From assembly GCA_017517305.1 (NCBI GenBank), contig JAFWZV010000001.1:62001-126000 (forward strand): a stretch of DNA of 64,000 nucleotides, read 5' to 3'. Positions 13,245-31,823 of this stretch are shown here, in pieces. Under the pieces are notes generated by a model. The model had not been told where the DNA came from. It was given only the letters and a program-made list of their open reading frames with translations, and did no database searches. The stretch is from Lachnospiraceae bacterium (GTDB taxonomy: Bacteria; Bacillota; Clostridia; Lachnospirales; Lachnospiraceae). Position 1 is the first letter of the stretch, and each line of letters starts with the position of its first letter. A program made the translations under genes and the position numbers.

Positions 13245-13245
13245 A

Positions 13246-16044: not shown

Positions 16045-17022
16045 ATGAAGAAGATACGCAGACTTGGCACCCTAATGGTTTCAGTACTGGTGATGATGAC
16101 CCTAGGTGCTTGTAATAAAAATAAAGATGAATTAGTCTTGGTGACTACAGAAAGTACAACAATGACTGAAGCAACAACAGAGGCTTCAACAGAAGAACTG
16201 ATTACAGAGGTTGCCACAGAGGAAGCACAGGGGGCGGAAAATTCTATCTCTTTTGAAGATATGTATGATTGTAATAAGGGAGACACACTTTTGGCTGGTG
16301 GAGAAAGCTATGGTGTAAATACAATATATTATTCTGGAGAAGAGGAGAGCTATTCTGAATATGAGTTTTTAGGCTTTGATAATACAGGTATGTATGCCCA
16401 GGTGTATGAAAATTCTGATGGACGTGTAGAGGTACTGGATGTTGCTAATTCATATTGGTATGTGTTTGAAGAGAATCAGCTATCAGTGTTAATTTATCCT
16501 GAGCCACTTGTTGCAGCTGCAATAATTGATTCTAATCATAACTCTATGATTTTTGGGTTGTCTGGAAGGGAAGACGGTACGGAGGTTGTAGAGAATGTAT
16601 ATAGACGAGAAGGAAAGCTTATAGTTGAGACTGTATACAATGATGCTTCTGGAGAAAACTATATGTTAGAATATACATTGAATGATGATTGGATAGTTGA
16701 GGAATTTTACTGCTATGATAGTAGTAAAAGAAAAATGTCATATTCTTTAGTAACTGCCGGAGATACTTATGAGATACCAGATTTAATTACTGAAGCTCAG
16801 GCAATGGTGGATGGATATAGAACAATAACCTTTACATATGTGAATGAGGATCAGATTGATATGACTTATTATACTCCGTTGAATGTTCCTATTGAGCTTA
16901 GCTTAATGGAATATGTAGCTTACAGTGATCAGGAGTGTACAGTGGAATGGGCTTTGGATGAGCCTGGTGAAGATGGGGTTTACAAGGATGTAACCATATA
17001 TTTGAAGAAAAATGTTGACTAG
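16045..17022 (+). CDS. Lipoprotein of unknown function
   Basis: This 325-residue protein has a positively charged N-terminus, a hydrophobic core and a lipobox LGAC with the acylated Cys near residue 23. A Thr/Glu-rich linker (TTESTTMTEATTEASTEE-like) follows, as in many Lachnospiraceae surface lipoproteins. The rest is acidic and beta-rich with no family I recognise. GGAGG precedes the ATG. It ends 34 nt before a FliD-like gene, with no terminator between them, so they may share a transcript. Confidence 0.75.
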   Translation: MKKIRRLGTLMVSVLVMMTLGACNKNKDELVLVTTESTTMTEATTEASTEELITEVATEEAQGAENSISFEDMYDCNKGDTLLAGGESYGVNTIYYSGEEESYSEYEFLGFDNTGMYAQVYENSDGRVEVLDVANSYWYVFEENQLSVLIYPEPLVAAAIIDSNHNSMIFGLSGREDGTEVVENVYRREGKLIVETVYNDASGENYMLEYTLNDDWIVEEFYCYDSSKRKMSYSLVTAGDTYEIPDLITEAQAMVDGYRTITFTYVNEDQIDMTYYTPLNVPIELSLMEYVAYSDQECTVEWALDEPGEDGVYKDVTIYLKKNVD

Positions 17023-17056
17023 TGTGTTAATGTAGTACCAAGGAAGGAGAATGATT

Positions 17057-17746
17057 ATGAGCTTTTTAAATGTATCAAATACCTACGATTATATGAATAA
17101 CTTTTTTGGAGCATCAGCTACAAATGGCTCATCTGGAGCAAATAATTTCTTAGGCGATTATTATGCTGTACAGAATGGTTCGTATTATAAGTTGGCAAAG
17201 AACTTTTATGCTAAGGCTGCTGCAGAGGAGAAGATTAGCGACTCGGTTGATGAAAAAAGTGTGGAGCTTGTGAAATCAGGGGCTGAGGAAGCTATAAACT
17301 CTTTAAACAAGCTTATGGATGAGGGATTGTTTGAAAAGGGCGAATCTGATGATAAGGATGCAATTCTTGATAAGCTTAATTCATTTGTAAAGGATTATAA
17401 TGCCATGATTAATAATGCAGGTGAGATGGATGGGGAGAATTCCCTTAAAGCTGGTGTAAGATTAGTTGACCAGATGAAGGTATATAAATCTGCATTGTCT
17501 AGAATAGGCGTAAGTATTGAGAGTGATAATACACTAAAGGTTGATGAGGATGCATTTAAGGAATCAGATATTTCAGATGTAAAGAATCTGTTTACAGGTA
17601 ATGTGTCTATGGCTAAGAATATTCAGTCAAAGCTTTTGCAGGTGTATTCATCTGCTAATATGGATCTTAAATCTACAGACGGACTTTATTCAGCACAGGC
17701 GATTAAGAATGTTACTCTTGGAAGCATGTTTGACAGTATAACCTAG
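17057..17746 (+). CDS. Short FliD-like protein (C-terminal domain only)
   Basis: This 229-residue protein resembles the C-terminal half of the flagellar cap protein FliD: LDKLNSFVKDYNAMIN near residues 95-113, KVYKSALSRIGVSIESDNTLKVDEDAF around 138-170, then VKNLFTG. The FliD N-terminal domain and a signal peptide are both missing. Full FliD is usually over 400 residues. No flagellar gene (fliS, flaG, fliC) is nearby. The ATG 17057 has AAGGAG seven bases before it; ATG 17051 is too close. It may be an exported cap-like or adaptor protein, or a remnant, but the frame is intact. Confidence 0.65.
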   Translation: MSFLNVSNTYDYMNNFFGASATNGSSGANNFLGDYYAVQNGSYYKLAKNFYAKAAAEEKISDSVDEKSVELVKSGAEEAINSLNKLMDEGLFEKGESDDKDAILDKLNSFVKDYNAMINNAGEMDGENSLKAGVRLVDQMKVYKSALSRIGVSIESDNTLKVDEDAFKESDISDVKNLFTGNVSMAKNIQSKLLQVYSSANMDLKSTDGLYSAQAIKNVTLGSMFDSIT

Positions 17747-17759
17747 GCTTTGTATAATT

Positions 17760-17790
17760 AATGGGACTCTTGATGGGTCCCATTTGTTTT
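17760..17790 (+). terminator. Terminator between the FliD-like gene and the pseudouridine synthase gene
   Basis: An 8-bp stem (17760-17767 with 17777-17784) has a 9-nt loop and is followed by TGTTTT. It lies directly after the FliD-like stop codon. Confidence 0.6.
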
Positions 17791-17804
17791 GTGGAGGGGA
17801 AAAT

Positions 17805-18524
17805 ATGTCTCTTATTAGACTTGATAAATTCTTAGCTGACGCAGGTCAGGGTACTCGGTCAGAGGTGAAAATAAAATTAAAGCAGTGTAGAGTTAGGGTA
17901 AATGATGAAGTGGTAAAAAAACCGGAGATTAAAATCAATCCTGATACGGATAAGGTTAGTATTGATGGAAAAGAACTTGTATTTGAGGAATTTCAATATT
18001 ATATGCTTAATAAACCTGCTGGCGTAGTGTCTGCCACTAAGGATGATAGAGATAAGACGGTTATAGAATTAATAGGAGAAGATAAGAGAAGAGATTTGTT
18101 CCCTGTTGGAAGACTAGATAAGGATACGGAGGGACTGCTTATTATTACTAATGATGGTGCGCTGGCTAATAGCTTACTTGCTCCTGGGAAACATGTTGAT
18201 AAATGTTATTTTGCTAGAATAGATGGTAGGGTAACGGAAGATACAGTGAAAAGCTTTGAAAATGGCTTGGATATAGGCGACGAGAAGCTTACTGCCCCAG
18301 CTACTCTTATTATAGAAGAAAGTGGAGAGGAAAGCCTTGTTAGGATTATAATTACTGAGGGGAGATATCATCAGGTTAAGAGGATGTTTGAAGCTGTGGG
18401 AATGAAGGTTACATATTTAAAAAGGCTTAGTATGGGTAGCCTTTGTCTTGATTCTAGCTTAGGAATAGGTGAATATAGAAAACTAACAGAGCACGAACTT
18501 GATTTGCTCAAGAAAAGCAAGTGA
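17805..18524 (+). CDS. rsuA: RsuA/RluB-family pseudouridine synthase
   Basis: This 239-residue enzyme isomerises uridine in rRNA. It has an N-terminal S4 RNA-binding domain (RLDKFLADAGQGTRSEVKIKLKQCRVRVN) and a catalytic domain with the family motif GRLDKDTEGLLIITNDG around the catalytic Asp. The C-terminal motif ITEGRYHQVKRMFEAVG is also present. The pattern fits 16S U516-type RsuA better than RluB, but specificity cannot be certain. ATG 17805 with GGAGGGG upstream is the start; the TTG at 17784 is inside the preceding terminator. Confidence 0.9.
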   Translation: MSLIRLDKFLADAGQGTRSEVKIKLKQCRVRVNDEVVKKPEIKINPDTDKVSIDGKELVFEEFQYYMLNKPAGVVSATKDDRDKTVIELIGEDKRRDLFPVGRLDKDTEGLLIITNDGALANSLLAPGKHVDKCYFARIDGRVTEDTVKSFENGLDIGDEKLTAPATLIIEESGEESLVRIIITEGRYHQVKRMFEAVGMKVTYLKRLSMGSLCLDSSLGIGEYRKLTEHELDLLKKSK

Positions 18525-18540
18525 ATATAATAAAAGCAAT

Positions 18541-18591
18541 ATAAAAGACAGTAAGTCATCTGCTATAAGCAGTTGGTTTACTGTCTTTTAT
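18541..18591. terminator. Bidirectional terminator between convergent genes
   Basis: Long arms 18541-18554 and 18578-18591 pair perfectly over 14 bp, with an inner CTGC/GCAG stem. Runs of A and T lie at either end. It serves both the pseudouridine synthase gene and the minus-strand FliD-like gene, whose stop codon it overlaps. Confidence 0.8.
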
Positions 18592-19853
18592 GCATAATTG
18601 TTATACATAAGTCCGCTGTATAGGGACTGAGTATAGGTGTTGTTAAGCTTGTTGGAAGCGTTAGGGTAAGAAACTATAGTTTTGTTTACATAGGCTATAG
18701 GATCTAACACTAATCTATTGGTTGCGTTCTCAATGTCTGTAGCTATGGTAGCGTTAGTGGTGAAGAATTCAGTAAATTCTCCGCTGGCAAGACTTTGTGT
18801 TACTTTCTCAGAATCTATAGAAAGCTTGCCGTCATCTAAGGTTGTGATACCAATACTCTCCATATTAGCTTTGTACTTTGATAAAACACCAGCTATATCT
18901 GTGCTTAGGCTTCTGGTTCCTATCTGAGATGGTGAGTTGGACGAAATATCTATAAGTCCGTTGTAGGCTGAGGTAAAGCTCTCTAATTGCTCTAATGCCT
19001 TCTTAGGATCAGAGGTCAGTCCAACCTTTACAGGACCTTGTGTGGTCTTGTGGAAATCTAACTCTATAGCCTGATTGATGGATATGTGGTTAGAGCTTGA
19101 TATATGCTGGTCGCCATTGATTGAAAAGCTAGAGTTGCTTGGCATAGACCTAACGTTATTAAGCTCAAAAACATTAACCAAATTCTGACCTGCTCCTTCA
19201 GGAACAAAGCTAAAGTGTAATCCGTCATCAGTGGCTGGCTTACCTGTTTCAGCTGATGTAAGCATAATAGCAGTGTTGTCGCCGTCTTTTATAAGAGAGG
19301 CATTAACACCGATATTTCTGTTGTTAATGTAGTTAACTAACTTGCTCTGAACATCAGCATTGGAATCACCTTTGTTGACAGTGATGCCAAAATGTGCGCT
19401 AGTGCTAAGTGTTTCTAATGTAAAGCGATGCTCTTTAGGTACCAGTGAGAATTCGTTGGACTTTACGTACTTGCTTACATTAACCTGCTCGGTGGCCAAG
19501 GTATCAATTTGGATATCTAAGCTTTCTGGAATATTGGCAGCACCTGGCTTTTTAAGTGAGCCTGATACTGATGAATTGTCAGAGGAAGAAAAGGCTTTCT
19601 TGGAGTATATATCATCCTCTGGATTTCCAAAGCTTTGAATGCTATACCTAAGTGAAAGAGCAGACTCCTTAATATTAATGATTTGCTCCTGTTTGCTATC
19701 GGATAGGGAAAGCATATAAAGAGGCGATGATTTATTATATTGCGCCATCTTAGTATAAATTGCCTTAAGCTCGGAGGACTTATGGGTAGTTGTACGTTTT
19801 TTAGGAACAGTATTAGCGCCTAAATGATTGTAAATATTACTATTAACCTTCAT
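18588..19853 (-). CDS. FliD-like (flagellar cap-type) orphan protein
   Basis: This 421-residue protein has FliD-like features: IQIDTLATEQVNVSKYV near residues 110-126 (FliD N-terminal motif), a domain with FGITVNKGDSNADVQSKLVNYIN and NIGVNASLIKDGDNTAIML, a SFSINGDQ segment, and a C-terminal block ALEQLESFTSAYNGLIDI followed by SIGITTLDDGKLSIDSEKV. The first 100 residues are Ser/Lys-rich and not FliD-like. There is no signal peptide, as for proteins exported by the flagellar apparatus. GGAGG precedes the ATG. No flagellar operon is visible. It shares its C-terminal fold with the short FliD-like gene 840 bp away on the other strand. Confidence 0.65.
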   Translation of the reverse strand: MKVNSNIYNHLGANTVPKKRTTTHKSSELKAIYTKMAQYNKSSPLYMLSLSDSKQEQIINIKESALSLRYSIQSFGNPEDDIYSKKAFSSSDNSSVSGSLKKPGAANIPESLDIQIDTLATEQVNVSKYVKSNEFSLVPKEHRFTLETLSTSAHFGITVNKGDSNADVQSKLVNYINNRNIGVNASLIKDGDNTAIMLTSAETGKPATDDGLHFSFVPEGAGQNLVNVFELNNVRSMPSNSSFSINGDQHISSSNHISINQAIELDFHKTTQGPVKVGLTSDPKKALEQLESFTSAYNGLIDISSNSPSQIGTRSLSTDIAGVLSKYKANMESIGITTLDDGKLSIDSEKVTQSLASGEFTEFFTTNATIATDIENATNRLVLDPIAYVNKTIVSYPNASNKLNNTYTQSLYSGLMYNNYA

Positions 19854-20194
19854 AAAATTCCTCCTTCCTTGGATTTGTGATAATTTCCTTATTTGTTTGC
19901 CTAGTTTCCCAGTGTTATTCTTATAGTTATTTTAATTATATTATAGTTTTTTACTATAGTCTATAAAAAAATAGTATATAAATTCAACAAAATTTTTCTT
20001 CTATTATAATGCAATTAATACAAATAAATGGTATAATGCCAATGAAATGTGGTGAAAAAATGAAGAAAGTCAAATAAAATAGCTATATTTTGCTTGACTT
20101 ATCTAAAGGCTTTTGGTATTCTATACCTTGCGATGGAAGAAGGTCTTTTTTTTATGCCTTAAAATCAGTAAAATAAAAATGGAGGTGGATAGTT
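19854..20194. other. AT-rich intergenic region between divergent transcripts
   Basis: This 341-bp region holds the ribosome binding site and presumed promoter of the minus-strand FliD-like gene (with an ACTATAGT/ACTATAAT inverted repeat near 19938-19960). It also holds the promoter and leader of the rpmG-secE-nusG operon. No coding frame or RNA gene is recognised in it. I looked for a sigma-28-type promoter for the FliD-like gene and did not find a convincing one. Confidence 0.5.
20094..20122 (+). promoter_or_regulatory. Promoter of the rpmG-secE-nusG-rplKA operon
   Basis: TTGACT at 20094-20099 and TATTCT at 20117-20122 are 17 bp apart. About 65 bp of leader follow, including ACCTT/AAGGT arms and a run of eight T (20147-20154), which could act as a weak attenuator. 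Confidence 0.55.
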
Positions 20195-20344
20195 GTGCGT
20201 GTTAAGATAACATTGGCGTGTCAGGATTGTAAACAGCGTAATTACAATATGACAAAGGATAAGAAAACGCATCCAGACAGAATGGAAACTAAGAAGTATT
20301 GTAAGTTCTGTAAGGCGCATACAAATCATAAGGAAACAAAGTAG
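20195..20344 (+). CDS. rpmG: 50S ribosomal protein L33 (zinc type)
   Basis: This 49-residue protein is bL33: [18 protein letters not shown], then [28 protein letters not shown]. Two CxxC pairs mark the zinc-binding form. It starts at GTG with GGAGGTGG upstream. It is the first gene of the usual rpmG-secE-nusG order. Confidence 0.95.
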
Positions 20345-20392
20345 TCGGCATTGTTTAGGTTCTCTTATTAGGGAACGAGAAGGAGTAAGAAT

Positions 20393-20599
20393 ATGTCAAA
20401 GGATAATAAGACATCATCACCTTCTTTAAAGAGAAGCTGGTTTCAGGAACTCAAAGCAGAGTTTGCTAAGATAACTTGGCCAACTAAGAATGCTTTGGCG
20501 AAGAAGTCTGCAGTTGCATTAATAGTATCTATCGTAGTAGGACTTATTATTGCAGGAGTAGATATATTACTGAAATATGGCTTAAGCTTTATTATTTAG
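20393..20599 (+). CDS. secE: Preprotein translocase subunit SecE
   Basis: This 68-residue protein has the SecE pattern: an amphipathic region WFQELKAEFAKITWPTKNALAKKS followed by a single C-terminal membrane segment (residues 42-66). It clamps SecY in the SecYEG channel. The single-TM form is usual for Firmicutes. It lies between rpmG and nusG, as in most bacteria. AAGGAG precedes the ATG. Confidence 0.96.
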   Translation: MSKDNKTSSPSLKRSWFQELKAEFAKITWPTKNALAKKSAVALIVSIVVGLIIAGVDILLKYGLSFII

Positions 20600-20615
20600 T
20601 AAGGTAGGTGAGAAT

Positions 20616-21206
20616 ATGTCAGAGATTCTAGAAAATGATGCTACTAATAGCGAAGCTACTGGGGTGAATGAAGCACCACAGGGTGAGGCTAGATGGTATG
20701 TAGCTCATACCTACTCAGGTTATGAGAACAAGGTTAAGACTGATATTGAGAATACCATTAGAAACAGAAAGCTTCAGGAGCAGATTCTTGAGGTTGCAGT
20801 GCCTGTACAAGAGGTTGTAGAGACAAAGAGCAACGGAACTAAGAAGACTGTTCAAAGAAAGCTGTTTCCGGGATATGTGCTTATTAACATGTATATGAAT
20901 GATGTTACTTGGTACGTGGTTCGTAATACACGTGGAGTAACAGGCTTCGTTGGTCCAGAGTCAAAGCCAGTTCCCCTAACAGAAGCAGAGATGCGCAATA
21001 TGGGAATTAATGTTGACAAACCAGTTATAGCTTCAATTGATGCAAAGGTAGGAGAAGTGATAAAGGTTATTACCGGAGCATGGGAAGGAAGCTTTGGTGA
21101 GATTAAGGCAATCAACGACAGTAAGCAGACAGTTACAATCGAGGTAGATATTTTCGGACGTGCTACTTCTGTAGAGATTGGTTTCACAGATATTCAGAAG
21201 ATGTAA
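20616..21206 (+). CDS. nusG: Transcription termination/antitermination factor NusG
   Basis: This 196-residue protein has a 25-residue acidic N-terminal extension. The NGN domain follows (RWYVAHTYSGYENKVKTDIE, then KLFPGYVLINMYMNDVTWYVVRNTRGVTGFVG), with a C-terminal KOW domain (GEVIKVITGAWEGSFGEIKAIND). It binds RNA polymerase and links transcription with translation or Rho. It follows secE by 16 nt with AGGTGAG upstream. Confidence 0.97.
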   Translation: MSEILENDATNSEATGVNEAPQGEARWYVAHTYSGYENKVKTDIENTIRNRKLQEQILEVAVPVQEVVETKSNGTKKTVQRKLFPGYVLINMYMNDVTWYVVRNTRGVTGFVGPESKPVPLTEAEMRNMGINVDKPVIASIDAKVGEVIKVITGAWEGSFGEIKAINDSKQTVTIEVDIFGRATSVEIGFTDIQKM

Positions 21207-21212
21207 GTTTAA

Positions 21213-21239
21213 GTGGAAGGGTATCCCCCGTTATACCAC
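21213..21239 (+). promoter_or_regulatory. L1-binding leader element before rplK
   Basis: The 27-nt element starts GTGGAAGGG and ends TTATACCAC, with the ends pairing GTGG/CCAC and an inner GGG/CCC stem. It resembles the L1-stalk base of 23S rRNA (GUGGGAGG...AAUACCAC). L1 repression of its own operon through such a mimic is known in other bacteria. A near copy lies before rplA. Confidence 0.6.
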
Positions 21240-21263
21240 AATATTTTTAGGAGGTACGCTATA

Positions 21264-21689
21264 ATGGCGAAAAAAGTAGAAGGATATATTAAATTACAGA
21301 TACCTGCAGGAAAGGCAACTCCTGCACCACCAGTTGGTCCAGCACTTGGACAGCACGGTGTAAACATTGTACAGTTCACAAAGGAATTTAACGCAAGAAC
21401 TGCTGATCAGGGAGATATGATTATCCCAGTTGTTATCACAGTTTATGCAGATAAGAGCTTTAGCTTTGTAACTAAGACTCCACCAGCAGCAGTATTACTT
21501 AAGAAGGCGTGCGGTCTTAAGAGTGGTTCTGCAGTACCTAACAAGACAAAGGTTGCAAAGATTTCTAAGGCAAAGCTCCAGGAGATCGCTGAGCTTAAGA
21601 TGCCAGACTTAAATGCAGCTTCACTTGAGGCAGCTATGAGCATGATCGCTGGAACAGCTCGTTCAATGGGAATCACAGTTGAGGACTAA
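21264..21689 (+). CDS. rplK: 50S ribosomal protein L11
   Basis: This 141-residue protein is uL11: [40 protein letters not shown] at the N-terminus and the RNA-binding C-terminal domain ending in [17 protein letters not shown] 21264 follows AGGAGG; a 17-residue longer frame from 21213 would run through the L1-type leader element and is rejected. Confidence 0.97.
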
Positions 21690-21716
21690 TTTAACATTGA
21701 ATATGAAGATTAGATA

Positions 21717-21744
21717 GTGGGAGGGTCGCTCCCGATAATACCAC
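21717..21744 (+). promoter_or_regulatory. L1-binding element in the rplK-rplA intergenic region
   Basis: The 28-nt element begins GTGGGAGGG and ends GATAATACCAC. Outer GTGG/CCAC and inner GGGAG/CTCCC arms pair around a short loop. The similarity to the L1 stalk of 23S rRNA is closer here than in the rplK leader copy. It directly precedes the rplA ribosome binding site. Confidence 0.65.
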
Positions 21745-21758
21745 AGGAGGTTTTTATA

Positions 21759-22448
21759 ATGAAAAAAGGTAAAAGATATTCAGAGGCTGCAAAGCTTATT
21801 GAAAAGACAAATTTATATGACTTAGAAGAGGCTGTTACTTTAGTTAAGAAGTCAGCTAGCGCAAAGTTCGATGAGACAATTGAGGCTCATCTTAGACTTG
21901 GTGTTGACGGTCGTCACGCAGATCAGCAGGTTCGTGGTGCAGTAGTACTTCCTCACGGAACTGGTAAGACTGTTAAGGTTTTAGTATTTGCTAAGGGAGA
22001 TAAGGTTGATGAGGCTTTAGCTGCTGGAGCAGATTACGCTGGTGGTGATGAGTTAGTACCAAAGATCCAGAACGATGGTTGGTTAGATTTTGACGTAGTT
22101 GTTGCTACACCAGATATGATGGGTGTTGTTGGTCGTTTAGGACGTGTACTTGGACCAAAGGGCTTAATGCCAAACCCTAAGGCTGGTACTGTAACAATGG
22201 ACGTTACTAAGGCTGTTAACGATATTAAGGCTGGTAAGATTGAGTACAGACTTGATAAGTCAAACATTATCCATGTGCCAATAGGAAAGGCTTCTTTCTC
22301 AGAGGAGCAGTTAACAGACAACTTCCAGACATTAATAGAGGCAGTTATCAAGGCTAAGCCTTCAGCAGCTAAGGGTCAGTACCTTAAGAGCGTAGTAATC
22401 GCTTCAACTATGGGTCCTGGTGTAAAGCTTAACACTGCTAAGTACTAG
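21759..22448 (+). CDS. rplA: 50S ribosomal protein L1
   Basis: This 229-residue protein is uL1: [22 protein letters not shown] at the N-terminus, [22 protein letters not shown] in the middle, and the conserved [22 protein letters not shown] at the C-terminus. AGGAGG precedes ATG 21759. In many Firmicutes rplJ and rplL follow; here a strong terminator comes immediately after rplA and an unrelated ACP cassette follows. Confidence 0.97.
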
Positions 22449-22472
22449 AATTAGATAAATGCACTAATAAAG

Positions 22473-22510
22473 TGAGCCTGTCACAGCAATGTGGCAGGCT
22501 TATTATTTTT
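22473..22510 (+). terminator. Terminator after rplA
   Basis: The stem GCCTG...CAGGC with CACA/TGTG inside encloses a GCAA tetraloop and is followed by TTATTATTTTT. It closes the ribosomal protein operon. Confidence 0.85.
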
Positions 22511-22531
22511 GTGCATAATGTATGAACAAAC

Positions 22532-22560
22532 TTGATTTTTATATATAAACATAGTAAAAT
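22532..22560 (+). promoter_or_regulatory. Promoter of the ACP cassette
   Basis: TTGATT at 22532-22537 and TAAAAT at 22555-22560 are 17 bp apart, 37 bp before the ACP start codon. Confidence 0.6.
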
Positions 22561-22596
22561 ATTATTTGATTGAAAAATCTACAGGAGGTATATGTT

Positions 22597-22839
22597 ATGG
22601 ATAAGGACCAGATAACTAAAAAGCTTGAAGAAATTATACTTGAAGAGATGCCAGAGCTTGATAGCGTGAATATGAATGCATCTATGGTTAATGAGTACGG
22701 TATTAATTCAGTATCATTAATAAGATTGATTGTTGCTGCAGAGCAGAAGTTTGATGTTGAGTTTGATGACTATGAGTTAGATCTTAGCGCTTATGATACA
22801 TTTGCAGATCTTGTAGCTACAGTGGCAGAGAAAATATAG
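22597..22839 (+). CDS. Acyl/peptidyl carrier protein
   Basis: This 80-residue acidic helical protein has the carrier-protein fold. The phosphopantetheine attachment motif, normally DSL, reads GINSVSLI here, with Ser38 as the expected attachment residue. AGGAGG precedes ATG 22597. The protein is not in a fatty acid gene context. It is followed 20 nt later by a BtrH-like gene, and an Sfp-type phosphopantetheinyl transferase gene lies downstream, so it is probably a dedicated carrier for a special acyl or aminoacyl group. Confidence 0.88.
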   Translation: MDKDQITKKLEEIILEEMPELDSVNMNASMVNEYGINSVSLIRLIVAAEQKFDVEFDDYELDLSAYDTFADLVATVAEKI

Positions 22840-22859
22840 GAATCAGGAGGGGTTTTAAA

Positions 22860-23915
22860 ATGGCAGACGTAAAAAAGTTACCTTTAGCTAAGCCACTCAT
22901 CACATCATGGCAGTGGCATGCATCACTTTTCTCAATTCTTTCAGATGATGAGAATGCAAAAAAATGGATTTATAGTAATTACATACAGCTTCGTTGTTAT
23001 GATATCGAGGAGAGATGGACAGGGGATACTATTCTTCTTACAGATATGATGCCAGGAAGCAGCTCACTTAAGCAGTGTCCATACCTTATGTTCTCTATGA
23101 TGACTAAGGCACAGATTGAGAGCTACTGTGGTAACATTATTGACTTTATTATTAAGACTATTGATCTTGGCGGATATGTATACGGTGTATTCGATGAGGC
23201 TAAGATTCTTTGTAACGCAGAGGTAGATTATAAGTTCCCTCATGAGCTTTTTATCTACGGTTACGATAGAGATAAGGAGGAGTTCAACGTAGGTGACTTC
23301 ACCTTCACAGATAAGTATTCACATAACAGAGTATCATTCTCAGATGTTGAGAGAGGATACGAGGTTATAACAGAGCAGGATGACCATATCTTCAAGGATG
23401 ACTACAAGGGTGGTAGAGGACTCTATGTAATTATGAAGAATACAGATGTACCTCTTTATGACCTTGATATTGAGCTTATTAAGGAAAACCTTAAGGAGTA
23501 CTTAAACTCTATAGATTCAAAGAATCATTTCCGTATGATGAGAAATAGATTCAACGATACTACATTTGGTATTAAGGTATATGACAGAGTGTTAGCTCAG
23601 ATTGATAAGCAGCTTCATAAGGCTGAGCCTGATTTCGATATCAGAGCTTTACATGTTATGTATGACCATAAGGTTCTTATGCTTGAGAGAATTAAGTACC
23701 TTATGAATAACGGTGCATTAAAGTACAACCAGCAGACTATCGACGAGTATGCAACAGTTGTTACTAATATGCTTGCAGCTAGAAATCTTCTTCTTAAGAT
23801 TTCTATAACTGGAAACATTGAGTCATCAAGCAGATTTAAGACTTACCTTGATGCAGCTAAGGAGAAGGAGATTGGTATTCTCTTCAAGGTATTAGCTGAG
23901 TTAGAGGAGAAGTAA
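22860..23915 (+). CDS. BtrH-like protein, candidate ACP-dependent acyltransferase
   Basis: This 351-residue soluble protein shows the block FPHELFIYGYDRDKEEFNVGDF near residues 124-145. It resembles the His-containing strand of papain-like domains in the BtrH/butirosin-H family (H...GYD...f...D). Candidate nucleophile cysteines are Cys46 (LRCYD) and others, but I cannot place the nucleophile confidently. BtrH transfers an acyl group from an ACP to an amine acceptor. The C-terminal third is helical. Codon use (many TTC, TAC, AAC, AAG, GAG) resembles the ribosomal protein genes, suggesting high expression. It is co-directional with the ACP gene and followed by a strong terminator. Confidence 0.6.
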   Translation: MADVKKLPLAKPLITSWQWHASLFSILSDDENAKKWIYSNYIQLRCYDIEERWTGDTILLTDMMPGSSSLKQCPYLMFSMMTKAQIESYCGNIIDFIIKTIDLGGYVYGVFDEAKILCNAEVDYKFPHELFIYGYDRDKEEFNVGDFTFTDKYSHNRVSFSDVERGYEVITEQDDHIFKDDYKGGRGLYVIMKNTDVPLYDLDIELIKENLKEYLNSIDSKNHFRMMRNRFNDTTFGIKVYDRVLAQIDKQLHKAEPDFDIRALHVMYDHKVLMLERIKYLMNNGALKYNQQTIDEYATVVTNMLAARNLLLKISITGNIESSSRFKTYLDAAKEKEIGILFKVLAELEEK

Positions 23916-23941
23916 GAATTAGTTAATACTTAATATAATAT

Positions 23942-23985
23942 AAGACTTCGTACTGATTATGGGTACGAAGTCTTTTGATTTTTAT
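23942..23985 (+). terminator. Terminator after the BtrH-like gene
   Basis: Arms 23942-23953 and 23963-23974 pair perfectly over 12 bp with a 9-nt loop, followed by TTGATTTTTAT. It separates the ACP pair from the phosphopantetheinyl transferase gene. Confidence 0.85.
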
Positions 23986-24050
23986 CTTGTTTATAACGGC
24001 CACCTGTGATAACTTTATGTTGGAATCGTATTTTGTGTAGGAGAAAAAAT

Positions 24051-24725
24051 GTGAGTGCTAAAAATATAAATGTAGTTATAAAGAAAATAAATTGGCAGAA
24101 GCTTGAAGAGGAATTTCAAAGCCTTAATTCTAAGCTTTATCCAGCTCGTAAGCTTGGGGTGGAAAAATTAAAAAATCAAAGAGCTAAGTTGGCGTCAATG
24201 GCTACTGGTTTGTTGTTGCAGGATATAGTGAAAAATGAATTAGGCATAAAACCTGAGAACTTAGTTATAGGTAAGGGAGAATATGGAAAACCTTATGTTG
24301 AGGGACATCCAGAATTTAATTTTAACATATCACATTCAGGAAATATGGTTGTAGTTGCTTATGGTGACTCTCCAGTTGGAATAGATGTGGAAGGTATAAG
24401 ATACCGTGAGAATGATTTAAAGGTGGCAAAAAGGTGTTTTATGCCGGAGGAGTATGCATTTATCACTAGTGAAGAATTTGACGTGGATTTGGAGGGAATA
24501 AGCCACTCTGTAGAAGAAAAATTTTTTATGGTGTGGACTATGAAGGAGGCTTATCTTAAGTATAAGGGGACTGGAATTAGTGTTTCGATGAAATCCTTTC
24601 AGGTAAACCCCTATGAAGGTGTAGTGGTAGGAGAGAAGCTTAGCTGTCAGACACTAATTATTGACGAGTACGTATATGCTGTATGTGTGGATGAGAATGT
24701 GGAGATTAATATGAATTTCCAGTAG
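24051..24725 (+). CDS. Sfp-type 4'-phosphopantetheinyl transferase
   Basis: This 224-residue enzyme transfers phosphopantetheine from CoA to a carrier-protein serine. The family motifs are present: KPYVEGHPEFNFNISHSG near 80-97, VGIDVEGI with Asp112 and Glu114, and FFMVWTMKEAYLKYKGTG near 159-174 (Lys165, Glu166). It begins at GTG 24051, with AGGAG seven bases before; the frame extends upstream to GTG 24006 but that lacks a site. Its position right after an ACP gene suggests that ACP is its target. Codon use is ordinary, unlike the two genes before it. Confidence 0.9.
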   Translation: MSAKNINVVIKKINWQKLEEEFQSLNSKLYPARKLGVEKLKNQRAKLASMATGLLLQDIVKNELGIKPENLVIGKGEYGKPYVEGHPEFNFNISHSGNMVVVAYGDSPVGIDVEGIRYRENDLKVAKRCFMPEEYAFITSEEFDVDLEGISHSVEEKFFMVWTMKEAYLKYKGTGISVSMKSFQVNPYEGVVVGEKLSCQTLIIDEYVYAVCVDENVEINMNFQ

Positions 24726-24769
24726 AAAAAAGCGTACTAGTATAATAGGAAATTCTCTTCTTAAAGCCC

Positions 24770-24798
24770 TTGACAAAGAAAAGTATATATTGTACAAT
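24770..24798 (+). promoter_or_regulatory. Promoter of tRNA-Arg
   Basis: TTGACA at 24770-24775 and TACAAT at 24793-24798 are 17 bp apart, 45 bp before the tRNA. Confidence 0.75.
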
Positions 24799-24843
24799 TA
24801 CCACTGTTGTGAAGTGGTTTTTGCTTTGCTAATTAAATAGCAT

Positions 24844-24917
24844 GCGGCAGTAGCTCAGCTGGATAGAGCACTTGGCTACGGACCAAGGTGTCGGGAGTTC
24901 GAATCTTCTCTGCCGCA
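24844..24917 (+). tRNA. tRNA-Arg (ACG)
   Basis: The 74-nt cloverleaf has a 7-bp acceptor stem GCGGCAG/CTGCCGC, D arm GCTC/GAGC, and anticodon stem CTTGG/CCAAG with loop CTACGGA. The anticodon is therefore ACG (read as inosine, CGN codons). The T arm GGGAG-TTCGAAT-CTTCT contains G-U pairs. The discriminator base is A. CCA is not encoded. Confidence 0.95.
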
Positions 24918-24922
24918 TAATT

Positions 24923-24959
24923 AAGAGGACTATCTGATGGTATCAGGTAGTCCTCTTTT
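24923..24959 (+). terminator. Terminator of tRNA-Arg
   Basis: An AAGAGGACTA...TAGTCCTCTT stem with further internal pairing is followed by TTTTC. Confidence 0.85.
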
Positions 24960-24988
24960 CGTATATAATTTAATCTTAAATAATGTTG

Positions 24989-25026
24989 GAAAAAACTTAA
25001 GGCAACCTACTTTCGTAGATTGCCTT
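24989..25026 (-). terminator. Terminator of tRNA-Gln
   Basis: On the minus strand a 12-bp stem (25015-25026 with 24999-25010) with a GAAA loop is followed by AAGTTTTTTCC. Confidence 0.85.
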
Positions 25027-25033
25027 ATATCAG

Positions 25034-25105
25034 CTGGGCTACAAGGATTCGAACCTTGAGATGCTGGAGTCAGAGTCCAGTGCCTTACCATTTGGCGATA
25101 GCCCA
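25034..25105 (-). tRNA. tRNA-Gln (CTG)
   Basis: The 72-nt minus-strand cloverleaf has acceptor stem TGGGCTA/TAGCCCA with discriminator G. The anticodon arm is CTGGA-CTCTGAC-TCCAG, giving anticodon CTG, and the T arm CAAGG-TTCGAAT-CCTTG. The U1-A72 start and G73 are typical of bacterial tRNA-Gln. Confidence 0.94.
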
Positions 25106-25121
25106 TCACTCACAAGAATGT

Positions 25122-25150
25122 ATTATAATAGAGAGTTCCAAAAAATGCAA
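25122..25150 (-). promoter_or_regulatory. Promoter of tRNA-Gln
   Basis: On the minus strand TTGCAT (25145-25150) and TATAAT (25122-25127) are 17 bp apart, 16 bp before the tRNA. Confidence 0.75.
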
Positions 25151-25282
25151 GTACTTTTTTGAAAAAATTTCAAAATCCTCTATACATCTTTGTATTGGCT
25201 ACATTTTCCTGAATAGTATCCGTAAATAATATCAAATATATACTTAGAAAAGATAAATAATTTTAAATTTTATGAATATAGT

Positions 25283-25311
25283 TTGACAAAGCTAGCGTTA
25301 TGGTTTAGAAT
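25283..25311 (+). promoter_or_regulatory. Promoter upstream of a 117-residue orphan gene
   Basis: Consensus TTGACA at 25283-25288 and TAGAAT at 25306-25311 are 17 bp apart, so the small downstream gene is probably well transcribed. Confidence 0.75.
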
Positions 25312-25348
25312 TTCACGTGTTACAAACATTTACGGAGGGGTTATAAAG

Positions 25349-25702
25349 ATGAACGTTATATATGTAGTTCCTTGGGCTATATGTGAAACAGACAGTATAT
25401 ATGTGAAGAAGGTTAATAGTGATACTGTTCCTGCTCCTGAGAAGGGTGCTACAGTTGATGATTGGTGCATCAGGAATGTGATTCCTAATCCTGATAGAAG
25501 AAGTAAGGATGTGTATGCAGTTATAGATGTCTATAATGGTTACAAGGAAAACCTTAATGAGAAGGGTATGTCAGTATTTTCACTCAGTAACTCTGTGGAG
25601 AGATTAGAGGAGTGTGGATATGTAAAGGCATCAGACGCAGAGACAGAACATATTAGAAAAAAGGTTTTAAAATTAGATAAGGCTACTAAGAAGGCTAAAT
25701 AG
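25349..25702 (+). CDS. Conserved-looking 117-residue protein of unknown function
   Basis: I do not recognise this protein. It is soluble, with an N-terminal strand MNVIYVVPWAIC, an invariant-looking WCIRN segment near residue 40, and a Lys-rich C-terminus. It has no signal peptide or membrane segment. ATG 25349 follows GGAGGGG; a longer frame from 25283 would begin inside the -35 box and is rejected. It stands alone between a consensus promoter and a strong terminator, which suggests independent and fairly high expression. Confidence 0.7.
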   Translation: MNVIYVVPWAICETDSIYVKKVNSDTVPAPEKGATVDDWCIRNVIPNPDRRSKDVYAVIDVYNGYKENLNEKGMSVFSLSNSVERLEECGYVKASDAETEHIRKKVLKLDKATKKAK

Positions 25703-25707
25703 TTATA

Positions 25708-25740
25708 AAGACCACTTTAGAGTGGTCTTAAGTTTTATTT
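25708..25740 (+). terminator. Terminator of the 117-residue gene
   Basis: A 9-bp stem (25708-25716 with 25721-25729) with TTAG loop is followed by AAGTTTTATTTT. Confidence 0.85.
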
Positions 25741-25779
25741 TATGCTTGTGGAGAGAACAAGAGAAAGAGAGGACGGAGT

Positions 25780-26685
25780 ATGATAGAATTTGGTAAATGG
25801 AATACCTTAAAGGTTATTCGCTCAAAAGATTTTGGAGTGTACGTGGGTGAGGATAATACCCCAGCAAATGAGTGCATTTTGCTTCCTAGAAAACAGGTGC
25901 CAGAAGGGGTAAAGGCTGGTGCTACAATTGATGTATTTATTTATAGGGATTCTCAGGATAGACCTATAGCTACAGTTAATCAGCCACTTATTACTTTGGG
26001 AGAGATAAAGAAGCTTAGAGTGAAAAATGTAAGTAATATCGGTGCATTTATGGACTGGGGCTTAGAGAAGGACATATTACTTCCTTTTAAGGAGCAAACT
26101 GCAAAGGTTGAAGAGGGTAAGGAATATCTTGTTAGAATGTACGCTGACAAGTCTGACAGACTTTGCGTAAGTATGAAGCTTTACTCGCATTTGCTTCCTG
26201 CAGAGGGAATAAATAAGGGTGACCATGTAACAGGAACAGTATATGAGTTTAAGAAGAATTTAGGTGCATTTGTGGCTATAGATGATAAGTATCTAGGCTT
26301 GATTCACGAGAGTGAGCTCTATAATAAGGTTTATGTTGGAGATGTGGTTAATGCCAGGGTGGTAACAGTTAGAGAAGATGGCAAGGTTGACTTATCTTTA
26401 AGAGATGAGGCTTATGTGCAGATAGATCAGGACAGTGCTATGGTCTATGACATAATTAAGAGCTATAAAGGTGTTTTGCCATTTAATGATAAGGCGGACC
26501 CAGAACTGATTAAGAAAGAATTTGGACTTAGCAAGAATGCATTTAAGAGAGCAGTTGGTAGACTCTTAAAGGATGGTAAAATAAATATTACGGATAAAAC
26601 CATTGAGATAGTTCAGGTTGAAAAGAAAAAGAGCACTGCGAGAAAGTCAGACAGAAAGCTTGAAAGAATGAAAGGAGATATGTAA
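25780..26685 (+). CDS. cvfB: S1-like RNA-binding protein CvfB
   Basis: This 301-residue protein matches CvfB/YitL: an N-terminal S1-like domain (GKWNTLKVIRSKDFGVYVG), a LLPRKQVP motif, S1 domains near residues 68-130 (VKNVSNIGAFMDWGLEKDILLPF) and 145-210, and a C-terminal winged helix (GLSKNAFKRAVGRLLKDGKI). The family binds RNA and affects virulence gene and transcript stability in staphylococci. The stop codon overlaps the ATG of ridA (TAATG), so the pair is translationally coupled. Confidence 0.92.
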   Translation: MIEFGKWNTLKVIRSKDFGVYVGEDNTPANECILLPRKQVPEGVKAGATIDVFIYRDSQDRPIATVNQPLITLGEIKKLRVKNVSNIGAFMDWGLEKDILLPFKEQTAKVEEGKEYLVRMYADKSDRLCVSMKLYSHLLPAEGINKGDHVTGTVYEFKKNLGAFVAIDDKYLGLIHESELYNKVYVGDVVNARVVTVREDGKVDLSLRDEAYVQIDQDSAMVYDIIKSYKGVLPFNDKADPELIKKEFGLSKNAFKRAVGRLLKDGKINITDKTIEIVQVEKKKSTARKSDRKLERMKGDM

Positions 26686-27071
26686 TGAACAAGACAATTA
26701 TTTCTACAGATAAGGCACCTGCAGCAATTGGACCATATTCACAGGCTATCGCTGTGGGAGATATGATATTCACATCAGGTGTAATTCCAATTATTCCTGA
26801 GACAGGTGAGCTTGAGACAGGAGATATTAAGGCTCAGGCTAATCAGGCTATTGGCAATCTTATTAATCTTCTTGAGGCGGCTGGTTCTAATGCTGACTCA
26901 GTGGTTAAGACTACAGTTTTCATCAAGGATATGAATGATTTTGCTGCTGTAAATGAAGTGTACGCTACATATTTTACTGATAATTACCCAGCACGTTCAT
27001 GTGTTGAGGTTGCAAGACTTCCAAAGGATGTGCTTATTGAAATTGAGGCCGTAGCCTTGAAGGCAAACTAG
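26685..27071 (+). CDS. ridA: RidA-family enamine/imine deaminase
   Basis: This 128-residue protein is of the Rid family, which hydrolyses reactive 2-aminoacrylate and related enamines. Visible motifs are PAAIGPYSQAI near the N-terminus, TSGVIPI, and PARSCVEVARLPKDVLIEIEAVA with the catalytic Arg. The ATG overlaps the cvfB stop. The nearby ilvE fits metabolism of branched-chain keto acids, the classic context of RidA. Confidence 0.95.
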   Translation: MNKTIISTDKAPAAIGPYSQAIAVGDMIFTSGVIPIIPETGELETGDIKAQANQAIGNLINLLEAAGSNADSVVKTTVFIKDMNDFAAVNEVYATYFTDNYPARSCVEVARLPKDVLIEIEAVALKAN

Positions 27072-27072
27072 T

Positions 27073-27354
27073 ATGAGCAAAGAAATTATTATTCTGCTAA
27101 TAGCGTTTTTGGCTGTGTATAATCTGGTGGTTTTTTGCATATATGGCTACGATAAGCGCTGTGCAATAAAGGATAAATGGAGAGTTCCAGAGAAGGTTCT
27201 TATAGGTCTTGCGTTTTTGGGCGGTTCTGTAGGTGCCTATCTTGGGATGAGTATATTTAGACATAAGACGAAACATACAAAGTTTACTGTGTTGGTTCCG
27301 TTAGCATTATTAATACATTTAGTCATAGCTGTGTGGCTAATTGTGGGTAGATAA
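27073..27354 (+). CDS. DUF1294 membrane protein
   Basis: This 93-residue membrane protein has three hydrophobic segments and the DUF1294 signature YGYDKRCAIKDKWRVPEKVLIGLAFLGGSVGAYLGM and FRHKTKHTKF. The function is unknown. It starts one base after the ridA stop codon and so belongs to the cvfB-ridA transcript. Confidence 0.88.
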   Translation: MSKEIIILLIAFLAVYNLVVFCIYGYDKRCAIKDKWRVPEKVLIGLAFLGGSVGAYLGMSIFRHKTKHTKFTVLVPLALLIHLVIAVWLIVGR

Positions 27355-27425
27355 AAGCTGTGAACAGTGTTAGGTTTACATAATGCTAAGAATAAAAAAT
27401 GCTTTAAAATGATATACATTTTTTC

Positions 27426-27453
27426 TTGCATATTCTTCCACGAGTGGTAAAAT
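27426..27453 (+). promoter_or_regulatory. Promoter of ilvE
   Basis: TTGCAT at 27426-27431 and TAAAAT at 27448-27453 are 16 bp apart. No T-box or leader peptide is seen in the short leader of about 35 nt. Confidence 0.5.
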
Positions 27454-27491
27454 GGGTGTATGTGACAATCTACGGAAAGAAGGTTTTAGTT

Positions 27492-28517
27492 ATGAGCAAG
27501 AATATTGATTGGTCAAATCTTGGATTTGGCTACATTAAGACAGAGAACAGATTTGTATCTAATTACAAGGATGGAGCATGGGATGAGGGCGCTATCACAA
27601 CTGATGATATGGTAGTTATCAGCGAGTGTGCAGGTGTTCTTCAGTATGCACAGACTTGTTTTGAGGGCCTTAAGGCTTATAGAACAGAGGATGGTAAGGT
27701 TGTATGCTTCCGTCCTGACTTAAATGCAAGCAGAATGGTGGATTCATGTGAGAGACTTGAGATGCCAACATTCCCAGAGGACAAGTTTGTAGAGGCAGTT
27801 GAAAAGGTTGTTCAGGCTAATTTAGATTATGTTCCACCATATGGCTCAGGAGCAACTCTTTATATTAGACCATATATGTTTGGCTCAAACCCTGTTATCG
27901 GTGTTAAGCCAGCTGATGAGTATCAGTTCAGAATTTTCGTTACACCAGTAGGCCCTTACTTTAAGGGTGGTGCAAAGCCTATTACTATCAGAGTATCAGA
28001 TTTCGATAGAGCAGCACCACATGGTTCAGGACATATTAAGGCTGGACTTAACTATGCAATGAGCTTACATGCAATCGTTGATGCTCATAACAAGGGCTAT
28101 GCTGAAAACTTATATCTTGATCCAGCAACTAGAACTAAGGTTGAGGAAACTGGTGGAGCTAACTTTATCTTCATCACAAAGGATGGAAAGCTTGTAACTC
28201 CTAAGTCAGATAGTATTCTTCCATCTATTACAAGACGCTCACTTATGTATGTAGCTGAGCACTATCTTGGTATGGAGGTTGAGCACAGAGAGGTTTATCT
28301 TGATGAGCTTAAGGACTTTGCTGAGTGTGGTCTCTGTGGTACAGCAGCAGTTATTTCACCTGTTGGAAAGATTGATGATCATGGTACAGAGATTTGCTTC
28401 CCAAGTGGTATGGAGGAGATGGGTCCTGTAACTAAGAAGTTATATGATACATTAACTGGAATCCAGATGGGACGTATCGAGGCACCAGAAGGATGGATTA
28501 AGGTTATCGCTGAGTAA
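27492..28517 (+). CDS. ilvE: Branched-chain amino acid aminotransferase
   Basis: This 341-residue class IV PLP aminotransferase transfers amino groups between branched-chain amino acids and 2-oxoglutarate. Motifs include AQTCFEGLKAYR, LYIRPYMFG, the Lys-containing GSGHIKAGLNYAMS (PLP Schiff base lysine), EETGGANFIFI and ECGLCGTAAVISPVG. The length is that of the long (eukaryote-like/Bacteroidetes-like) IlvE form. ATG 27492 is chosen; a 22-residue extension upstream runs through the promoter. Confidence 0.95.
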   Translation: MSKNIDWSNLGFGYIKTENRFVSNYKDGAWDEGAITTDDMVVISECAGVLQYAQTCFEGLKAYRTEDGKVVCFRPDLNASRMVDSCERLEMPTFPEDKFVEAVEKVVQANLDYVPPYGSGATLYIRPYMFGSNPVIGVKPADEYQFRIFVTPVGPYFKGGAKPITIRVSDFDRAAPHGSGHIKAGLNYAMSLHAIVDAHNKGYAENLYLDPATRTKVEETGGANFIFITKDGKLVTPKSDSILPSITRRSLMYVAEHYLGMEVEHREVYLDELKDFAECGLCGTAAVISPVGKIDDHGTEICFPSGMEEMGPVTKKLYDTLTGIQMGRIEAPEGWIKVIAE

Positions 28518-28536
28518 AAAAGGTTAAAAAGATTAT

Positions 28537-28568
28537 GGCGTCTCGCTTTTGTGGGGCGCCTTTGTTGT
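28537..28568 (+). terminator. Terminator after ilvE
   Basis: A 10-bp stem including G-U pairs (28537-28546 with 28551-28560), TTTT loop, then TTTGTTG. Confidence 0.65.
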
Positions 28569-28598
28569 ATGTGCACCTCGGTGCAAGGAGGTTATGTT

Positions 28599-29075
28599 AT
28601 GAAGAAGACAGAAAAAACAAATGTAATGCGTTTGTTAGAGCAAAAGAAGATTGACTACAAAAGCTATGACTATACTGATACAGGAGTGATAAGTGGTGCA
28701 GAGGTTGCCGAGGCTTTGGGACAAAATCCAGACCAGGTATATAAGACTCTGGTGACTCAGGGGGCTACTAAGAATTATTATGTATTCCTAGTACCTGTGC
28801 TTAAGGAGCTTAATCTTAAAGCCGGAGCAAAGGCAGTGGGAGAAAAAAGTATTGCCATGATAAAGTCTAAGGAGCTGCTACCACTTACAGGATACATTCA
28901 TGGCGGATGTTCTCCTATAGGTATGAAGAAGCAGTTTAAGACGGTTATAGATGCCTCAGTTACAAATTTTGAAACTATATTCTTCAGCGCAGGAAAGATA
29001 GGCTATCAGGTAGAGGTTGCAGTGAAGGATATTGAGAAAATAGTTAGATATGAGCTTTCGGACATTGCGGAGTAA
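28599..29075 (+). CDS. ybaK: Cys-tRNA(Pro) deacylase YbaK/EbsC
   Basis: This 158-residue protein is a free-standing editing domain that clears Cys-tRNA(Pro). Motifs: AEALGQNPDQVYKTLVTQG with the catalytic-site Lys, YYVFLVPVLKELNLKAGAKAVG, and GYIHGGCSPIGMKKQFKT. AAGGAGG precedes ATG 28599; the upstream extension lies in the ilvE terminator area. Confidence 0.94.
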   Translation: MKKTEKTNVMRLLEQKKIDYKSYDYTDTGVISGAEVAEALGQNPDQVYKTLVTQGATKNYYVFLVPVLKELNLKAGAKAVGEKSIAMIKSKELLPLTGYIHGGCSPIGMKKQFKTVIDASVTNFETIFFSAGKIGYQVEVAVKDIEKIVRYELSDIAE

Positions 29076-29130
29076 AAGAAGGCTATGGATATACTTAATT
29101 CTGTAAAGCTAAAGTAAAAGTTAAAATAGG

Positions 29131-29165
29131 GTTGGCTGGAGAAATCCAGTCAGCTTATTTTATTT
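29131..29165 (+). terminator. Terminator after ybaK
   Basis: A 10-bp stem with GAAA tetraloop (29131-29140 with 29145-29154) is followed by TTATTTTATTT. Confidence 0.8.
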
Positions 29166-29168
29166 ATG

Positions 29169-29197
29169 TTGACAGATATATATCCAAGTGCTATATT
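29169..29197 (+). promoter_or_regulatory. Promoter of the metal efflux operon
   Basis: TTGACA at 29169-29174 and TATATT at 29192-29197 are 17 bp apart, directly before an ArsR-type operator. Confidence 0.75.
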
Positions 29198-29200
29198 AAA

Positions 29201-29220
29201 CATATGAACAATCATTCATA
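29201..29220 (+). promoter_or_regulatory. ArsR/SmtB-type operator
   Basis: The 20-bp imperfect palindrome CATATGAACAATCATTCATA overlaps the expected transcription start. It matches the known ATATGAACA-type half sites bound by zinc/cadmium-sensing ArsR proteins. Repression by the product of the next gene is inferred. Confidence 0.7.
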
Positions 29221-29243
29221 CAATAAAGTTAAGGAGGTTTCTT

Positions 29244-29612
29244 ATGGCAGAGAAGGATAATAAGCATGAACATTGTTGCTTGGAGCAGCATAATCATAAA
29301 GAGCTAATTGAATCTGTTAGTATGGATATGCCTGAGGAAGAGGTGCTTTATGATTTAGCAGAGCTATTTAAGGTGTTTGGCGATACTACCAGAATTAAGA
29401 TATTATATACTCTCTTTGAATCAGAGATGTGTGTATGTGATATAGCAGAGGTTCTTAATATGACGCAATCAGCTATATCTCATCAGTTAAAGGTTTTAAA
29501 GCAGGCTAAGCTTGTTAAGAATAGAAGAGATGGAAAGCAGATTATTTACTCTCTAGACGATGGACATATTGCAAATATTATAACTATGGGAATAGAACAT
29601 ATTATGGAGTAG
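29244..29612 (+). CDS. ArsR/SmtB-family metal-sensing repressor
   Basis: This 122-residue winged-helix repressor has HTH NMTQSAISHQLKVLKQAKLV. Two possible metal sites are visible. The alpha-3 type is the ESEMCVCDIAE cysteine pair, with N-terminal His/Cys residues (HEHCC). The alpha-5 type is DGH, ten residues, then HxxE at the C-terminus (DxHx10HxxE). Having both types is as in zinc/cadmium sensors such as ZiaR and CadC. It precedes an HMA protein and a P1B-ATPase, so it is the probable Zn/Cd-responsive repressor of this operon. Confidence 0.92.
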   Translation: MAEKDNKHEHCCLEQHNHKELIESVSMDMPEEEVLYDLAELFKVFGDTTRIKILYTLFESEMCVCDIAEVLNMTQSAISHQLKVLKQAKLVKNRRDGKQIIYSLDDGHIANIITMGIEHIME

Positions 29613-29690
29613 TTAGATTAAATAAGATGCAATATTAGCAAAACATACAGTGCTAATATAAATAAATTATTAAAATGGAGGAATAAGACT

Positions 29691-29909
29691 ATGAAGAAGA
29701 GATTTGATATGGAAGATTTAGATTGTGCAAACTGCGCAGCAAAGATGGAGGAGGCTATTAAGAAGATTGAAGGTGTTATAGATGCAAATGTTAGCTTTAT
29801 GGCACAGAAGCTTACTATCGAGGCAGAGGAAACAGACTTTGACAAGATTATGAAGCAGGTTGTTAAGGCAGTTAAGAAGGTTGATTCAGACTGTGAGGTA
29901 GTTCTTTAA
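29691..29909 (+). CDS. Free-standing HMA metal-binding protein
   Basis: This 72-residue protein is a single ferredoxin-like heavy-metal-associated domain with the binding motif DCANCAAKME at residues 11-20. It looks like the N-terminal domain normally fused to a zinc/cadmium ATPase, here as a separate gene. It ends three bases before the ATPase gene, which lacks such a domain. Metal delivery to the ATPase is the likely role. Confidence 0.9.
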   Translation: MKKRFDMEDLDCANCAAKMEEAIKKIEGVIDANVSFMAQKLTIEAEETDFDKIMKQVVKAVKKVDSDCEVVL

Positions 29910-29911
29910 AG

Positions 29912-31819: not shown

Positions 31820-31823
31820 ATAA

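Follow-up and report, generated by a model that had tools for sequence, protein, structure and literature searches.

What are an acyl carrier protein (ACP) gene, a gene for a 351-residue protein and an Sfp-type phosphopantetheinyl transferase (PPTase) gene doing side by side in a Lachnospiraceae genome (2.72 Mb, 98.66% complete), and do all three belong together? The genes lie in a window of 64,000 nucleotides (contig JAFWZV010000001.1, positions 62,001 to 126,000), and positions below are those of this window. The initial annotation, made from the sequence alone, described a cassette of a dedicated carrier protein, a protein with a BtrH-like H...GYD block and a PPTase, and considered a BtrH-like acyl transfer plausible, perhaps within an undescribed acylation or peptide-tailoring system. 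BtrH moves an acyl group from an ACP to an amine in butirosin synthesis. All three open reading frames (ORFs) were recovered on the plus strand where they had been placed: the ACP (22597..22839, 80 aa; PF00550, E 4.9e-8, above the cut-off), directly 5′ of the 351-aa gene (22860..23915), and the PPTase (24051..24725; PF01648, E 2.4e-14), whose ORF opens at 24006, leaving 24006 or 24051 as its start. The H...GYD block reads FPHELFIYGYD (residues 126 to 136), and no loading ligase, nonribosomal peptide synthetase (NRPS) or fatty acid gene was seen among the ORFs at 17000 to 32000, the stretch read by eye, as had also been noted. The locus is real and conserved but was misgrouped: it is a two-gene carrier-protein module, the enzyme-like half of which is a cysteine-less member of a known fold. 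The explanation that we tentatively favor is a housekeeping module in which a dedicated ACP serves an enzyme with the CcbD/CtaG/AziU3/BtrH fold; this enzyme would depend on the carrier protein and act by direct catalysis.

The extent of the unit was examined in 80 loci from GTDB genomes (kept from 87 confirmed), which together with the window give 81 orthologs, and in 37 genomes of the host's genus; the two sets overlap, and their counts are not independent. The ACP gene is located immediately 5′ of the 351-aa gene in 80/80 loci, with a gap of 21 to 54 bp, which rules out chance grouping, and the predicted phosphopantetheine attachment residue of the ACP, Ser38 (22708-22710, plus strand), is present in 81/81 orthologs. 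A hairpin scan found three terminator-like sites, compared to a mean of 0.9 in shuffled sequences, and two of them, on the plus strand in the rplA/ACP interval (22471..22504) and between the 351-aa gene and the PPTase (23942..23974), enclose the ACP and 351-aa genes only. Among the 79 of the 80 loci with enough sequence, such a site follows the 351-aa gene within 150 bp in 49, versus 7 of 79 shuffled controls. The 351-aa ortholog occurs in 31/37 genus genomes, the window genome included (E < 1e-100, excluding a row of E 9.7e-4 in G020), and all 31 also have the ACP ortholog (E ≤ 2.2e-26). G012 is the one further genome with the ACP; there the gene is on the minus strand near a contig edge (bases 77-316), and the next gene would fall past the contig end. 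Both genes are absent from five genomes (G002, G020, G022, G027, and G029), of which G027 is 99% complete and the other four 64 to 87%; a single weak match to the ACP (E 9.6e-4) occurs in G002. The unit is thus the ACP gene and the 351-aa gene, with the PPTase outside it. The carrier protein is a dedicated one, as had been proposed: its partnership, seen from the genes alone, consists of strict genomic pairing and joint presence or absence in the genus.

The PPTase does not share this behavior. It is the sole PF01648 match in the host genome, and the genus genomes have one such match (32/37) or none (5/37). It is retained in G002, G020, and G027, where the pair is missing. In the 29 genus genomes that hold both, it is nearby in 20, whereas a different contig or a distance of over 3.5 kb separates it from the pair in 9 (G003, G009, G014, G018, G021, G028, G031, G034, and G036). 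It lies within 2.5 kb downstream of the pair in 43/80 loci, some of the other 37 ending too early to judge. Measured against the window copies, the PPTase has a median identity of 36.7% (43 loci), compared to 70.4% for the 351-aa protein and 53.8% for the ACP (80 loci each); reference values are 67.2% for NusG (45 loci) and 85.2% for RplA (53 loci). Because it is the only PF01648 match, is kept without the pair, is often distant, and evolves faster, we read the PPTase as the genome's general one, not dedicated to the pair, and its position beside the pair is an annotation trap. An acylation cassette of all three genes, in which the PPTase is dedicated and the transferase is a Cys-His enzyme of the BtrH type, would account for the fold, for the ACP pairing, and for the proximity of the PPTase in 43 loci and 20 genus genomes. 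We nevertheless consider it very improbable, since this only PPTase stays where the pair is missing, follows a terminator-like site, and diverges far faster, and since the catalytic cysteine of such a transferase is absent (see below). The conserved co-occurrence suggested for three genes therefore holds for two of them. A separate AcpS match is likewise absent from the host and genus genomes, each PPTase-bearing genome having the single PF01648 protein.

Structure prediction yielded a BtrH-type fold, not an unrelated one, for the 351-aa protein, and the 80 loci do not fit a grouping peculiar to one strain; neither of the two outcomes that were to refute the initial reading occurred. The predicted models match CcbD, AziU3, and CtaG across their whole length, with a papain-like fold and a helical C-terminal domain. 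BtrH belongs to the same superfamily and shares the H..GYD block and the partner ACP, but the 351-aa protein has no PF14399 (BtrH_N) match at E ≤ 1 and lacks the cysteine, and neither a ligase nor aminoglycoside genes were seen nearby. The lincosamide condensing enzymes CcbD and LmbD differ in that CcbD carries Cys where the 351-aa protein carries Gln and is encoded in an antibiotic cluster. For CtaG (closthioamide), the variants listed in PDB entry titles affect Cys11, His128, and Asp144, which we read as its catalytic triad; of the CcbD/CtaG-type triad, the 351-aa protein lacks the Cys, while His128 and Asp146 are present in 81/81 orthologs. The kinship to AziU3 extends to both fold and sequence. 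AziU3, which acts with AziU2 in azinomycin synthesis, forms the aziridine on an amino-carrier protein substrate, and the 351-aa protein could similarly catalyze a reaction within a carrier-bound substrate instead of an acyl transfer. AziU3 was the top Foldseek match of the first model (1.2e-5), the second family by Z score for the second model (17.2), and the best PDB sequence match of a mixed profile, A5 (E 7.5e-4). Still, CcbD and CtaG fit equally well, a profile of Cys-less proteins alone did not find AziU3 at E ≤ 10, and no substrate-making genes were seen near the pair, so that AziU3-like chemistry seems unlikely.

A Cys-His dyad, which structure prediction had been expected to reveal, was not found: there is no cysteine at the catalytic position. 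The comparison set of Cys-type proteins comprised 13 relatives chosen by eye (12 of the 25 printed PF14399 hits and one more), in which Cys29 is present in 13/13 by selection; His132 (13/13), Asp114 (12/13), and Asp150 (12/13) played no part in the choice. In a global profile alignment, Gln18 (codon 22911..22913, plus strand) and His128 (codon 23241..23243, plus strand) of the 351-aa protein fall over Cys29 and the catalytic-type His132 of one Cys-type relative, L185. Papain-like enzymes keep the catalytic Cys at the start of helix 1, and in the second model helix 1 spans residues 19 to 27, with residue 18 at its start. Residue 18 is Gln in 79 of the 81 orthologs and Thr in 2. Of 46 distant relatives, 43 are aligned at the key columns, and in these Leu (13), Pro (8), Gln (7), and Thr (4) predominate; neither set has a Cys at this position. 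His128 is present in 81/81 orthologs and 37/43 distant relatives. Asp112 (codon 23193..23195, plus strand), read as the counterpart of Asp114 in the Cys-type set, is present in 81/81 orthologs and is D in 36/43 and N in 7/43 distant relatives. Two runs, ITSWQWHA and PGSSS, are invariant or nearly so in the orthologs. In a tree of 51 chosen rows, which has many long branches and is not at star level, a single branch parts Cys-less from Cys-type rows (support 93/93; 90% of bootstrap trees). No description of a Cys-less BtrH-like protein was found in the literature searched, which mostly excluded subscription papers.

A cysteine could have moved rather than vanished. Cys46 and Cys73 are invariant in the orthologs (81/81), and both also occur in L224, a distant near-ortholog, so that one of them might serve as a new acyl acceptor in a retained BtrH-type ping-pong reaction. 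We regard this as improbable, as neither is at the start of helix 1 (Cys46 is in the strand at 43 to 50, and Cys73 is in a loop region with a block mean pLDDT of 68), and among the distant relatives they occur in only 5 and 15 of 43, respectively.

CcbD is reported to use a Cys-His-Glu triad in a ping-pong reaction, in which the acyl group is loaded on the Cys and the acceptor amine, activated by His and Glu, attacks the acyl-Cys; the acceptor is contacted by Asp114 and His131, whereas the carrier protein is held by arginines of the C-terminal part (PMC12945683). The 351-aa protein retains likely counterparts of the acceptor side of CcbD and drops the Cys. Without a catalytic Cys, a BtrH-type ping-pong transfer cannot simply be carried over. 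Under the two-gene module with direct catalysis, the general PPTase would arm the ACP, which would carry an acyl or aminoacyl group, and the 351-aa enzyme would bind this ACP, holo or acylated, in the way known from CcbD and its carrier protein, and would modify the tethered group with no covalent acyl-enzyme being formed. Most likely, an amine (or hydroxyl) would attack the phosphopantetheine thioester directly, with His128 acting as the base and Asp112 holding the acceptor. Such a thioester is already activated, so that a direct attack aided by His128 as base would suffice chemically; NRPS condensation domains work in this way. We infer that the protein is catalytic and that its mechanism is direct; whether a papain-like fold can condense without an acyl-enzyme thereby becomes testable.

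The codon usage of the pair resembles that of ribosomal protein genes, in agreement with the initial annotation. Codon adaptation was scored for the 66 window ORFs of at least 75 aa against nusG, rplK, and rplA. The 351-aa gene (0.821) is second of the 66, after an ORF at 0.861 that we take to be rpsR; the ACP gene scores 0.710 and nusG, itself in the reference, 0.708, while the PPTase is ordinary (0.527). The same scoring was possible in 43/80 loci, which have nusG, rplK, and rplA plus three or more further ORFs. Median scores there are 0.70 for the 351-aa gene, 0.59 for the ACP gene, and 0.51 for the PPTase (29 loci), against 0.54 for the remaining ORFs; the 351-aa gene exceeds 374 of 405 other ORFs and is above all of them in 24/43 loci. 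Both products of the pair are thus probably abundant. High expression of both genes would also suit a stoichiometric complex, in which the 351-aa protein would be a pseudoenzyme bound to holo- or acyl-ACP, serving to hold, protect, or sense it and to pass it to enzymes encoded elsewhere. Such a non-catalytic partner would be consistent with the absence of the catalytic Cys in 81 orthologs and 43 distant relatives and with no ligase, NRPS, or tailoring gene being seen alongside the pair. The invariant Asp112, His128, and Asp146 and the near-invariant ITSWQWHA and PGSSS runs, however, exceed the apparent needs of a binding surface, and we consider this role a serious but doubtful alternative to direct catalysis.

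Several observations weigh against the favored module with its cysteine-free enzyme. Loss of the nucleophile often means loss of catalysis. Asp146, although invariant in the orthologs, is D in only 14 of the 43 distant relatives and G in 21, and a Cys mechanism could still operate through Cys46 or Cys73, both invariant in the orthologs. Codon bias is not at the top everywhere, the 351-aa gene of L098 exceeding just 4 of 9 other ORFs. L224, the nearest ortholog outside the family, keeps ITSWQWHA yet has no adjoining ACP, and the best ACPs of its genome are just 25 to 28% identical to the window ACP. Among 39 distant members with flanks, 20 have no carrier-type neighbor (some flanks are short), whereas 19 are within 6 kb of, or fused to, an ACP, an adenylating enzyme, or a PPTase, 12 of them near an ACP. 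These neighbors were detected with home-made profiles built partly from L111 to L114, which makes the test circular for those four, and members of one locus were counted separately. Within the window's own group the tie to an ACP is strict, but this does not extend to the whole family.

Pairwise distances of the pair proteins track those of RplA in 53 loci (Mantel r of 0.77 for the 351-aa protein and 0.78 for the ACP, with 0/999 permutations as high), the pattern expected under vertical descent, and the pair appears to have been passed on much like rplA. Orthologs of the 351-aa protein (E < 1e-190) occur in 9/299 genomes of the family, nearly one per genus. In a class-wide set, 17/343 genomes have some match, and besides two genomes of the same genus, the sole near-ortholog is in G428 (E 1.8e-115). 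Some gut and rumen bacteria inherit the carrier protein and its partner together; Eubacterium ruminantium ATCC 17233 (locus L067) is one carrier of the pair. A phage or plasmid origin was rejected, as neither phages nor a viral-contig scan gave a match, and only two distant relatives were found on Paenibacillus plasmids. To our knowledge, the fold members of known function (BtrH, CcbD/LmbD, CtaG, and AziU3) serve antibiotic pathways. Unlike this kin, the Cys-less member described here is a slowly evolving, probably abundant gene tied to one ACP, which hints that carrier proteins have a little-known role in ordinary metabolism. An acetone-induced protein of Desulfotomaculum annotated as BtrH may be another hint (PMC8084838). 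It is possible, and we propose it with reserve, that the pair is a primary-metabolism system of gut and rumen Lachnospiraceae in which a papain-fold enzyme, made at a ribosomal-protein-like level, forms bonds directly and without cysteine on an ACP-tethered substrate whose acyl source is not yet recognized.

As to the source of the tethered group, the host genome has six AMP-binding and four PP-binding matches. The C20 ligase was rejected as the loading enzyme: 8/299 family genomes match it (E ≤ 1e-60), namely G000 and seven without an ortholog of the pair protein, and the eight other ortholog-bearing family genomes are not among the matches (drawn with the same settings, not every genome being listed by name). 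A second ligase, beside the C11 ACP, sits among genes judged by eye to be of sugar-nucleotide type.

Elsewhere in the family, four of eight distant Cys-less relatives scanned have a weak PF14399 match in their second half (E 0.004 to 0.044, below the cut-off). L113 and L114 are Cys-less members in ligase-ACP clusters, and on the Paenibacillus plasmids an NRPS neighbor and a ligase/ACP/P450 cluster were seen. In L112 (G085:C1:4257000-4273000, 3375-14631), an NRPS has a C-terminal Cys-less BtrH-like domain; the cluster also has a ligase, an ACP, a PPTase, and a Cys-type BtrH-like protein, bringing both BtrH-like kinds together. In both L194 (G126:C22:99000-114000) and L196 (G158:C4:1500-17500), genes for a radical SAM protein, a PP-binding ACP, a subtilase-like protein, and ABC transporters accompany one for a Cys-less BtrH-like protein. 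The subtilase of L194 carries a fused DUF1611 domain; the subtilase of L196 and the transporters of both loci were named by eye. The arrangement looks like a carrier-protein-linked radical SAM cluster. L198 (G158:C6:32000-47000) has, in a row with a Cys-less BtrH-like gene, a radical SAM protein with a SPASM-like end, a BtrH_N protein, a C39-like ABC exporter (by eye), and a PLP decarboxylase. In family f47, genus g359 (L226, L228, L234, and others), a genome can have several paralogs of the Cys-less BtrH-like type; for some of these, no carrier-protein gene was found nearby, and glycoside-hydrolase-like genes (by eye) are neighbors.

The flanks of the pair vary among loci. Other recurring genes, present in some loci only, are the PPTase and, by eye, NifJ-like and glycosyltransferase-like genes and a fatty-acid-type cluster. 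In the window, secE-, nusG-, rplK-, and rplA-like genes, named by eye, are upstream of the ACP gene. The rplK-rplA segment (21213-22448) ends at a terminator-like site, and rplJ-rplL is absent after it among the ORFs viewed by eye. A tRNA-Arg gene (24843-24918) lies downstream of the PPTase.
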